NCBI GenBank assembly: GCA_005888295.1
Contig: VAWP01000067.1
Location: forward strand, 1 to 33,204
From: Actinomycetota bacterium
GTDB taxonomy: Bacteria > Actinomycetota > Acidimicrobiia > Acidimicrobiales > AC-9
Reading direction: 5' to 3'
Length of the DNA: 33,204 nt
A program made the position numbers and the translations under genes. Below are positions 3,837 through 27,741 of the stretch, piece after piece (position 1 is the stretch's first letter; each line of letters starts with the position of its first letter). The notes below the pieces were generated by a model. That model saw nothing but the letters and a program-made list of their open reading frames with translations. It did no database searches and was not told the DNA's origin.

Positions 3837-3861
3837 GTCGTCACACTACGTCCGTTTTACA

Positions 3862-3927
3862 CCGGCCTCCCGGGCCTGCTGTGCTCCCTTCGAGCCGGCC
3901 TCCCGGGCCGGCTGTGCGCCCCTCGAG
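3862..3927 (-). repeat. Hairpin-repeat locus A: two tandem 33-bp units CCGGCCTCCCGGGCC(T/G)GCTGTGC(T/G)CCC(T/C)TCGAG
   Basis: Copies 3862-3894 and 3895-3927; minus strand reads CACAGCCGGCCCGGGAGGCCGG, matching units at 22285-22348 and 26895-27044; lies between ccdA stop and amidohydrolase start. Confidence 0.9.
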
Positions 3928-14592: not shown

Positions 14593-14739
14593 CTGCGGGC
14601 CGTGCGCATGCGGGGGCCGCTCGTGGGGGTCCTTCACGGGGTCGCGCCCCAACGCGGCCTCGAGCCGGAACCGGCCGGTGGGGCTGCTCGCATCGTCGCT
14701 CCCGTCCTTCGTCCAGGGCAAGAGGGCGGCCACGAGCAC

Positions 14740-14824
14740 TCCCTGCGCCGGTATTACCCGGATCAGGTCCGACGGTCGGGAGCTGTCAGCTCACCCTCTC
14801 AGCCTGGTCACACCAGGCTCCCGT
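14740..14824 (-). promoter_or_regulatory. TPP (THI-box) riboswitch upstream of thiO
   Basis: Minus strand: CACGGGAGCCTGGTGTGACCAGGCTGAGAGGGTGAGC...GGACCTGATCCGGGTAATACCGGCGCAGGGAG, with the canonical CTGAGAGGG and ACCTGATC..GG.TAATACC.GCG.AGGGA blocks. Confidence 0.95.
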
Positions 14825-14836
14825 GTGGCCTCCACG

Positions 14837-21103: not shown

Positions 21104-21126
21104 CAGCCGGCCTCCCATGCCGGCCG
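21104..21126 (-). repeat. Hairpin-repeat locus B: single degenerate copy CAGCCGGCCTCCCATGCCGGCCG
   Basis: Minus strand GCCGGCATGGGAGGCCGGC; differs from the core GCCGGCCCGGGAGGCCGGC by two bases; upstream of yihY start. Confidence 0.65.
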
Positions 21127-21693: not shown

Positions 21694-22104
21694 CTAGCCC
21701 GCCCGGTCGGGACCGGCCCGATCGATCGTGATCCGCAAGAGGAGCCGGCGGTCCCGCTCCATGGCCCGGCGGTAGTCGTCCCAGTCGGGGTGCTCACCGC
21801 TGACGGACCGGTAGTAGGCGACCAGCTCGTCCATGGCGTCGGGGAGCTCCAGGAGGTCGACCGGCCCCTCCACCTGGACCCACGGACCGAAGAACTCGTC
21901 GCTCACCACGCACAGCGCCGCCCACGGGCGACGGCGTACGTTCACGGTCTTCATGGCGCCGGCTCGGGTGCTGACCACGGCCCGACCCCCACCGTCGATG
22001 GCGGTCGTCACCGGCGACAGCTGCGCACGACCGTCGCTTCGGGTGGTGGCCAGCACGCCCCGATGGTGCGAACGGATGAACCTGCGGGCATCCTCGGCGT
22101 CCAT
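21694..22104 (-). CDS. Pyridoxamine 5'-phosphate oxidase-fold protein, probable F420-dependent oxidoreductase
   Basis: 'MDAEDARRFIRSHHRGVLATTRSDGRAQLSPVTTAID...VVSTRAGAMKTVNVRRRPWAALCVVSDEFFGPWVQVEGPVDLLELPDAMDELVAYYRSVSGEHPDWDDYRRAM'. Confidence 0.88.
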   Translation of the reverse strand: MDAEDARRFIRSHHRGVLATTRSDGRAQLSPVTTAIDGGGRAVVSTRAGAMKTVNVRRRPWAALCVVSDEFFGPWVQVEGPVDLLELPDAMDELVAYYRSVSGEHPDWDDYRRAMERDRRLLLRITIDRAGPDRAG

Positions 22105-22120
22105 GACGAGCGAGGCTACC

Positions 22121-22242
22121 GTCTCGCCGGGCCAGCCTCCCGGGCTGGCCGTCTCGCCGGGCCAGCCTCCCGGGCTGGCCGTCTCGTCGGGGCCAGCCTC
22201 CCGGGCTGGCCGTCTCGTCGGGGCCAGCCTCCCGGGCTGGCC
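22121..22242 (-). repeat. Hairpin-repeat locus C, left array: four tandem 30-31 bp units GTCTCG(C/T)CGGG(G)CCAGCCTCCCGGGCTGGCC
   Basis: Units 22121-22150, 22151-22180 (identical), 22181-22211, 22212-22242 (identical); minus strand core GGCCAGCC-CGGGA-GGCTGGCC. Confidence 0.95.
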
Positions 22243-22284
22243 CATGCCAATCGTGTGGTCCCTGTACGATCCCGGCGGAGCCGC

Positions 22285-22348
22285 GCAGCCGGCCCGGGAG
22301 GCCGGCCCGAAGGCACGCAGCCGGCCCGGGAGGCCGGCCCGAAGGCAC
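22285..22348 (+). repeat. Hairpin-repeat locus C, right array: two identical tandem 32-bp units GCAGCCGGCCCGGGAGGCCGGCCCGAAGGCAC
   Basis: Units 22285-22316 and 22317-22348; opposite orientation to the left array; same core as loci A and D. Confidence 0.95.
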
Positions 22349-22365
22349 GGGAGGTGGGCGCCAGC

Positions 22366-24006
22366 ATGCTGAGCACGATGCAGGACAGACCGCTGACGAT
22401 CAGCGCCATCCTTCGCCACGGCCAGCAGACGTACGCCGACAGCGAGGTGGTCACGCATGGAGACGACGGCCGCCGCAGGGCCAGCTTCGCGACCGTGGGC
22501 GACCGAGCCGAGCGCCTGGCCGCCGCCCTGCGTGACCTGGGCGTGGAGCGGGGCGACCGGGTCGGTACCTTTTGCTGGAACGAGCAGGAGCACCTCGAGG
22601 CGTACCTGGCCGTTCCGAGCATGGGCGCCGTCCTCCACACCCTCAACATCCGGCTCTTCCCCGAACAGCTGAGCTACGTCGTGAACCACGCCGAGGATCG
22701 CCTCGTGCTCGTCGACGCGTCCTTGGCTCCCGTGCTGGCGCGGGTCGTCGGCGAGCTGAAGACGGTGCAGCACATCGTCGTGATCGGCGAGGGGGACGCC
22801 AGCCCGCTGGGCGAGACGCTTCGATACGAGCAGCTGCTCGCCGCCGCGGACACCGGCTTCGATTGGCCCGAGGTGGACGAGCGCGAGGCCGCTGCCATGT
22901 GCTACACGAGCGGCACGACGGGGAACCCCAAGGGGGTCGTGTACAGCCACCGGTCCACGTTCCTGCACAGTCTCGCCGTGACCTCCGCGGCCAGCCTCGC
23001 CGTCAACGAGCGCGACCGCGTGTTGGTCATCGTGCCCATGTTCCACGCCAACGCGTGGGGAATGCCCTATGCGGCGTGGCTGGTGGGGGCCGACTTCATC
23101 TTCCCGCAGCGCTTCGTCCAGCCCGAGCCGCTGGCGAGGATCATCGCCGAGGAGCGGCCGACAACGTCGGAGGGGGTACCGACGGTCTTGAACGACCTCC
23201 TCCACTACGGAGAGGACCACGATCTCGACCTCTCCTCGCTGCGCCTGGTCACGGCGGGCGGGTCGGCCGTGCCACGAGCCCTCATCGAGCGCTACCGGGA
23301 CCGCTACGGGGTCTGCATCGTGCAGGGCTGGGGGATGACCGAGACGAGCCCGCTCTGCGCGTTGTCCTTCCCGCCCAAGGGCGCGGCCGAGGACGAGGAG
23401 GTGGACTATCTGGCCCGCAGCGGCCGGGTGGTCCCCGGAGTCGAGGTTCGCGTCGTGGCCCCCGACGGCTCCGTGTTGCCACGCGACGGGAGGTCGGTCG
23501 GGGAGTTCGAGGTGCGCGGGGCCTGGATCACGGGCTCGTACTACGGCGACCCGTCACCCGAGCGGTTCCACGACGGCTGGCTGCGAACGGGGGACGTCGG
23601 GACGCTGGACGGCCGCGGGTACATGCAGATCACCGACCGCACCAAGGACGTCGTCAAATCGGGTGGCGAGTGGATCTCGTCGGTAGAGCTCGAGACCGCG
23701 CTCATGTCCCACCCCTCCGTGTTCGAGGCCGCCGTCGTCGGGGTGCCCGACCCCCGGTGGGACGAACGCCCCCTGGCCTGCGTGGTGCCCTGCGAGGGCG
23801 CCGACCCCGATCCGCTCCAGCTGCGGCGCTTCCTCGCCGACCGGTTCGCCAGGTTCTGGTTGCCAGAGCGCTGGGCGATCGTCGAGGAGGTGCCCAAGAC
23901 CAGTGTCGGCAAGTTCGACAAGAAGGTGCTGCGGGCCCGCTTCGCCGACGGTTCCCTGCACGTCGTCACGGCCGGCGACCCCGCGCAGCGCCCGGCGGGC
24001 GATTGA
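22366..24006 (+). CDS. Long/medium-chain fatty acid-CoA ligase (AMP-dependent synthetase)
   Basis: '[20 protein letters not shown]', '[11 protein letters not shown]', '[40 protein letters not shown]', '[13 protein letters not shown]'; SD GGGAGGTGG before ATG 22366. Confidence 0.95.
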
Positions 24007-26446: not shown

Positions 26447-27741
26447 GACTGGCCGTCGCCGACGAGGACCTGTCGGCCTGCGTGTCCTGCGGCCTGTGCC
26501 TTCCGCACTGCCCCACGTACCGGGTAACGGGGGAGGAGTCCGCTTCGCCGCGGGGTCGGATCGCCGCCATGCGGGCGACGCACGCCACGGACGCACCTGC
26601 GGGACCGGAGTTCGCCGAGTTCATGGACCTGTGTGTCCAATGCCGCGGGTGCGAGGTGGCGTGCCCGTCGTCGGTACCCTTCGGGCGTCTCATGGAGGGT
26701 GCACGCGCGACCCTCGCCCGCGAGACGGCGTACCAACCGCGCCGGCGACGGATGGGCTACGCCGTGCTCGGCCACCACCGCCTCCTGCTCCTCGCCTCGT
26801 CGGCCGCTGCGGTGCTCCAGCGCCTGCACCTGGTTCCGGCGCGGCTCGGCCTGCCCCGGTTGCCCCTGCGACGCCCGCGGCTGCGACCAGGAGATACAGC
26901 CGGCCCGGGAGGCCGGCCCATCGGTACAGCCGGCCCGGGAGGCCGGCCCATCGGTACAGCCGGCCCGGGAGGCCGGCCCATCGGTACAGCCGGCCCGGGA
27001 GGCCGGCCCATCGGTACAGCCGGCGTGGGAGGCAGGCCCCCGGAGCCCGACGCCTGGCTGTTCACCGGCTGCGTCATGGACGCCTGGATGCGCCCGACTC
27101 ACGCCGCAGCCCTACGGGTGATGCACGCCACGGGCGCCCGCGTGGCATTGCCCGGTCCTGGCGGCGACTGCTGCGGTGCCCTGCACGTGCACGCCGGGCT
27201 CCGCCGCCAGGCCGAGGCGTTGGCCCGCCGCGTCATGGCGTCCATGCCCGGTGACGCCCACGTGGTGGTCGACTCGGCCGGGTGCGGTGCCGCGCTCAAG
27301 GACTACGGAGCGCTGCTCGGGACCGCCGAGGCACGACGATTTTCCGACCGGGTGCTCGACGTACACGAGTGGCTGGCCGCCCGCGCCGGCCGGTTGCCGG
27401 CCGCCCGGCGGCGGCTCACCGGCCCGGTCGCGGTCCAGGACCCGTGTCACCTCCGCCACGTCCAGCAGGCCCATCAGCACGTGCGAACCGTGCTCGCCCC
27501 CTACGCCGACCTGGTCGAGCTGGGCGACGACGGCCTGTGTTGCGGAGCGGGCGGAGCCTACGCCGGTATCCACCCAGCGATGGCCCAGGAGATCCGGGCC
27601 CGAAAGGTCGCAGCCATCGCCGCGACCGGGGCTCCCGTCGTCGCCAGCGCCAACCCAGGGTGCATCGTGCACCTCGCCGGAGCGGGGCTCGACGTTCGCC
27701 ATCCGGTCGACATCATCGCCTGGTCGCTCGATGGCGGCTGA
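26443..27741 (+). CDS. glcF: Glycolate oxidase iron-sulfur subunit GlcF-like, with in-frame hairpin-repeat array
   Basis: Two CxxCxxCxxxCP clusters (CVSCGLCLPHCP, CVQCRGCEVACP) and CCG motifs (FTGCVMD, GDCCGALH, DPCHLRH, GLCCGAGGAY); the interdomain linker carries (TAGPGGRPIG)4. Confidence 0.93.
   Translation: MRLAVADEDLSACVSCGLCLPHCPTYRVTGEESASPRGRIAAMRATHATDAPAGPEFAEFMDLCVQCRGCEVACPSSVPFGRLMEGARATLARETAYQPRRRRMGYAVLGHHRLLLLASSAAAVLQRLHLVPARLGLPRLPLRRPRLRPGDTAGPGGRPIGTAGPGGRPIGTAGPGGRPIGTAGPGGRPIGTAGVGGRPPEPDAWLFTGCVMDAWMRPTHAAALRVMHATGARVALPGPGGDCCGALHVHAGLRRQAEALARRVMASMPGDAHVVVDSAGCGAALKDYGALLGTAEARRFSDRVLDVHEWLAARAGRLPAARRRLTGPVAVQDPCHLRHVQQAHQHVRTVLAPYADLVELGDDGLCCGAGGAYAGIHPAMAQEIRARKVAAIAATGAPVVASANPGCIVHLAGAGLDVRHPVDIIAWSLDGG
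26895..27044 (+). repeat. Hairpin-repeat locus D: four identical 30-bp units TACAGCCGGCCCGGGAGGCCGGCCCATCGG plus one degenerate unit, inside glcF
   Basis: Units 26895-26924, 26925-26954, 26955-26984, 26985-27014, degenerate 27015-27044 (TACAGCCGGCGTGGGAGGCAGGCCCCCGGA). Confidence 0.97.

Follow-up and report, generated by a model that had tools for sequence, protein, structure and literature searches.

Mycobacterial interspersed repetitive units (MIRUs) insert in such a way that their internal open reading frame overlaps the following gene at -4 nt and is coupled to it (Supply 1997, as summarized in PMC12548453). Rickettsia palindromic elements (RPE) and CGTC-type REPs are short palindromes that occur in frame inside conserved genes and for which no dedicated transposase is known, and REPs are short palindromes that are mostly located near gene ends, with some copies inside genes (PMC3733652). 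Here, we analyze a hairpin repeat, the A-hairpin, found in a 33,204-nt stretch of contig VAWP01000067.1 from an uncultured member of the Acidimicrobiales, the order that its best protein relatives also suggest (the stretch is referred to as the window). What had looked like a regulatory curiosity between two divergent genes turned out to be a single site within an extensive family of repeats that favors the sense strand. We consider it quite probable that the A-hairpin is a translation-compatible interspersed repeat, resembling MIRUs and RPE, that has been expanded locally in tandem, rather than a two-way switch. Literature searches yielded no description of repeats of this kind in Acidimicrobiia.

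The divergent gap and its orthologues

The gap is flanked by a leftward gene on the minus strand (21694-22104, ATG at 22104), the product of which has a PNPOx_N fold of the F420/FMN-type oxidoreductase family (Pfam PF01243, E 3e-15), and by a rightward gene on the plus strand (22366-24006, ATG at 22366) coding for an AMP-binding acyl-CoA ligase (Pfam PF00501, E 5e-82). The left array consists of four minus-strand units with the sequence GCCAGCC-CGGGA-GGCTGGC, at 22131-22149, 22161-22179, 22192-22210 and 22223-22241, and the right array of two plus-strand units, GCCGGCC-CGGGA-GGCCGGC, at 22288-22306 and 22320-22338. The preliminary description, which had reported four leftward and two rightward hairpins, with the CGGGA loop on the coding strand of each nearer gene, was thus accurate in units, orientation, coordinates and divergent geometry. 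Whichever way a unit points in a divergent gap, it will be in sense with one of the two genes. That the leftward gene extends N-terminally across its array, from an in-frame ATG at 22245, is unlikely, because the spacing of 30, 31 and 31 nt does not hold a single reading frame and there is a stop in sister species G001.

Two -10-like boxes were also found where they had been described. TACGAT (22265-22270, plus strand) does not differ between the three species of this genus for which the gap was compared, and its end is separated from the ligase start codon by 95, 61 and 62 nt, respectively. TAGCCT (22113-22118, minus strand, read 22118-22113) is likewise conserved in the three species and lies 8 nt 5' of the leftward ATG. 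This conservation makes the earlier promoter assignments reasonable guesses, but does not prove them, and a promoter scan of the gap found no sigma-70-type promoter. The sequence GGAGG at 22350-22354 (plus strand) is the probable Shine-Dalgarno of the ligase gene. The right-hand units probably lie in the transcribed leader of the ligase gene, whereas the left-hand units probably coincide with a near-leaderless promoter or are located upstream of it. The arrays may affect expression of the PNPOx-fold gene or the ligase; in our best reading of the sequence, any such effect on the two genes would be incidental.

Alignment of the orthologous gaps from this genome, G001 and G002 gave 4, 1 and 0 left units and 2, 1 and 1 right units, respectively; these genomes are fragmented, MAG-like assemblies, so that tandem copy numbers are open to misassembly. 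The first right-hand unit (22288-22306) has an orthologue in all three species, with loops CGGGA, CGGGA and TTGGA, whereas the second is a 32-bp tandem duplication present in this genome only. Judged from this alignment, only the TACGAT box and one right-hand unit are ancestral in the gap. Because the sister gaps hold one unit on either side, or a single right-hand one, the arrays as such are this genome's own, produced by recent tandem duplication of the hairpin with its local spacer. The retained right unit apart, the arrays are missing from the orthologous gaps and so are not conserved alongside the genes. A special two-sided regulatory design, as read from the arrays in the preliminary description, is not supported: among nine sampled divergent gaps, this one alone contains units in both orientations, and copies of the unit are also found within numerous coding sequences and behind stop codons. 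The locus probably arose when one unit landed 3' of the TACGAT box before the three species split, and one on the other side, after which both sides were multiplied in this genome by tandem duplication. The right-hand unit that was kept in three species could nevertheless have a function, which argues against a purely incidental repeat.

A rival explanation is a dedicated cis-regulatory RNA, in which the CGGGA hairpins of each 5' leader would be bound by a CsrA-like or some other protein, or would gate ribosome access, with the number of units setting the strength. Several properties of the hairpin fit this. Stem pairing has been kept by compensatory changes at stem pairs 1 to 5, and on the loop strand G-U pairs outnumber A-C combinations by 17 to 3. 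This excess fits pairing within a single strand, the loop strand, although a transcription-linked C-to-T bias could contribute to it as well. The loop and the closing pairs are invariant owing to the way units were selected. GGA motifs are present in the loop and in the spacers, the right unit and the TACGAT box are conserved, and 8 of 10 units in divergent gaps are nearer to the gene with which they are in sense (p 0.11). However, no CsrA gene was found in the genus, which excludes a CsrA sponge or CsrA-bound leader based on these GGA motifs. Moreover, copies reside inside enzyme genes and after stops, orthologous genes have zero or one unit, and the conserved right unit has weakened pairing in G001 and an altered loop in G002. 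Folding of the right leader is no better than that of shuffled sequence (z 0.46); the left leader does stand out against shuffles (z -2.95), owing to its perfect tandem palindromes. Taken together, we regard regulatory RNA as a quite unlikely explanation.

Abundance, strand and reading frame of the repeat family

The A-hairpin has the consensus [A/G]CCGGCC-CGGGA-GGCCGG[C/T]CC. With up to two mismatches, the 19-nt pattern matches 213 times in this 3.7-Mb genome compared to 7 times for the reversed control, and two sister species gave 228 and 171 matches. For the exact 17-nt core, this genome has 80 copies versus 0 for the control. Of 299 genomes from the order, 16 contain this core, none of them in the control orientation, and it is abundant nowhere but in this genus and one further family. 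The hairpin is therefore a genome-wide dispersed family, far above chance. The window itself contains further copies on the minus strand, namely two units between codirectional minus-strand genes (3861-3912) and a single diverged unit with the loop variant ATGGGA (21106-21124) just 5' of a Pfam-assigned BrkB-family gene. On the plus strand, four units with a period of 30 nt are in frame inside the gene for a GlcF-like Fe-S protein (26899-27007, or to 27034 with a decayed fifth unit), where they encode TAGPGGRPIG repeats; these are shared with G001, whereas G002 has a clean empty site. An Rfam search of the window gave no match to the A-hairpin. The sole family found was a TPP riboswitch at 14723-14834 (minus strand), 5' of a thiO-thiS-thiG cluster.

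To describe the placement of the family, we surveyed 55 stretches (506 kb) around matches, which together contain 68 arrays or single units. This is a sample drawn from the strongest matches, in which genes were called with a home-made codon model and detection of a unit needs the core motif. Within coding sequences, 24 arrays are in sense and 6 antisense, and in codirectional gaps the figures are 12 and 2 (combined p 2.5e-5), so that 36 of the 44 informative arrays are on the coding strand. Sense orientation is thus a property of the whole family. Among the Pfam-confirmed hosts are glutamate synthase, CarA, UvrD-like and DSHCT helicases, GlcF, ROK and TetR; the antisense hosts are genuine genes too, for example that of DNA polymerase III alpha.

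Between genes, the units keep close to reading frame ends. The distance from stop codon to unit is 0-19 nt in 17 of 22 cases, and for other intergenic arrays some 20-60 nt typically separate the last unit from a start codon. It could be argued that the hairpins act at 3' ends, as terminators or mRNA stabilizers, and that the divergent gap is an accident. About half of the intergenic arrays indeed begin 0-19 nt past a stop codon in the sense orientation, 10 arrays lie in convergent gaps, and a second strong hairpin often comes next. However, U tracts are absent, a scan of the gap having detected no U-tract terminator; copies in the middle of genes would truncate essential enzymes if they terminated transcription, and leader copies are located 18-31 nt before start codons. 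This makes a 3'-end role very improbable. The second hairpin, which is more variable and often of the form GGCGC..GCGCC, is found about 10 nt after many A-hairpins and gives composites of 51-55 nt, as in L099, L102, L114, L117, L123, L126 and L136.

Inside genes, reading frame is strictly respected. All 31 in-gene unit spacings are multiples of three, compared to 16 of 36 other intervals (p 2e-7), and the frame encoding AGPGGRP is preferred (17 of 24, p 2.5e-4). Since the periods come close to 3 and 5 turns of the helix, the units might suggest operator sites, but this reading was dropped because of the in-gene spacing in multiples of three and the strand bias of the units. In the large subunit of glutamate synthase (L126:3993-4101), a 40-residue insert, (KARPGGGSED)x4, sits between the central and the Glu_synthase domains and is absent from both sisters, G001 and G002. 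Likewise, the ThiO C-terminus of G002 carries two in-frame units just before the ThiS start (L096:3484-3532), which the other two species do not have. Orthologous genes, those of essential enzymes included, thus provide a graded insertion series of empty, single and tandem states. Bases of the 5' flank recur exactly 30 nt downstream, even at single units (z ~4.5), which may reflect duplication of roughly 9 nt of the target (21 + 9 = 30).

The RTGA form and comparison with MIRUs, RPE and REPs

In G030, which belongs to a different family within the order, ACCGGCC-CGGGA-GGCCGGT forms the head of elements of 50, 65 or 68 nt. At 20 of 23 of their 5' junctions, RTG precedes the hairpin and makes up RTGA with its first A. 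The TGA of this RTGA ends a long upstream frame at nearly all of the 20 junctions. In 17 of them, the RTG also serves as the start of a mini-ORF that runs into the following RTGA, element spacings of 50, 65 and 68 nt corresponding to mini-ORFs of 54, 69 and 72 nt. The insertion targets are ATGA/GTGA stop-start overlaps, and in the sister genome G115 three of the G030 sites are empty and show a plain ATGA overlap.

This form resembles MIRUs in its insertion at overlaps, its mini-ORF coupled at -4 nt, its lengths of 3n + 2 and its tandem copies, and the family as a whole in consisting of small, sense-oriented repeats with empty sites in relatives. Most copies in the window's genus are different. 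RTGA is found near the 5' end of only 4 of 68 arrays, and at neither array of the divergent gap; the genus form is 30 nt, and the arrays in the gap, with spacings of 30-32, have no mini-ORF. The 30-nt form is consequently tied to the RTGA element only by the hairpin core and by the reading frame, the T-G-P-G-G-R frame of G030 being that of the in-gene copies in this genus. In the Mycobacterium-group genomes searched, the exact 17-nt core did not occur and hits with one mismatch were at background level, and as far as this core search reaches, the A-hairpin sequence appears unrelated to MIRU. With this family, MIRU-like systems, clean empty sites included, would extend beyond the mycobacteria.

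The in-frame copies in conserved genes that are absent from orthologues (GlcF, glutamate synthase and the ThiO C-terminus of G002) are reminiscent of RPE. The A-hairpins differ from RPE and CGTC-type REPs in their head-to-tail arrangement, invariant CGGGA loop, 19-nt hairpin, 30-nt period and the RTGA form in a relative. Placement of palindromes near gene ends, and sometimes inside genes, is shared with REPs and BIMEs as well (cf. PMC3733652), so that the A-hairpins might be REP elements of the classical type, with a RAYT transposase as their mobilizing enzyme. However, they have a strong strand bias, their arrays run head-to-tail, and no fixed GTAG or CGTC tag adjoins the hairpin: the flanking bases at -4 to -1 vary, and GACG, the complement of CGTC, adjoins some arrays, including the left one in the window, without being a fixed tag. 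Of the four carrier genomes checked, three (G000, G002 and G030) have no Y1/RAYT gene and G001 has only a sub-threshold fragment, whereas RAYT-rich genomes of the order lack A-hairpin copies. We therefore think it highly doubtful that this is a RAYT-driven system. For the record, the relatives G034 and G022 gave 27 and 7 Y1_Tnp (RAYT-type) matches, respectively, and contain no A-hairpin copies.

In the MIRU/RPE-like reading that we prefer, the dispersed A-hairpin would be a mobile-like palindrome that propagates within transcribed DNA, in sense orientation, where translation survives, its mobility being deduced from the empty sites. The genus form is located directly behind stop codons, within 5' leaders and, as inserts of 30 bp (10 codons), in frame inside genes, and in the related family the hairpin heads the larger RTGA-overlap element, whose mini-ORF would keep neighboring genes translationally coupled. 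Against this reading stand the six antisense inserts in coding sequences and the fact that no mobilizing enzyme was identified. A bolder version, which we put forward tentatively and rate as rather unlikely, is that the repeat is an undescribed actinobacterial translated module, (T/A)-G-P-G-G-R-(S/P), that spreads only where ribosomes read through. It would do so by two routes: as in-frame inserts of 10 codons in one family, composed of the 21-nt hairpin and a target duplication of about 9 nt, and in the other as mini-cistrons that occupy stop/start overlaps in the manner of MIRUs. If true, the strand bias would imply an insertion process linked to transcription, translation or RNA, and not to a transposase of the classical type. 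The family makes two questions testable, how stop/start overlaps are chosen in a MIRU-like manner without a known transposase, and how proteins can accommodate in-frame decapeptides in several copies.

The stop/start overlap may be a common target of several unrelated families. At L174 (G240:C160), which is orthologous to site 2 of L167, a different RTGA-bounded tandem element was found, with a unit of about 100 bp (GTGAGTGGGCACGCC...), which occupies the same stop/start overlap as the A-hairpin element of G030.
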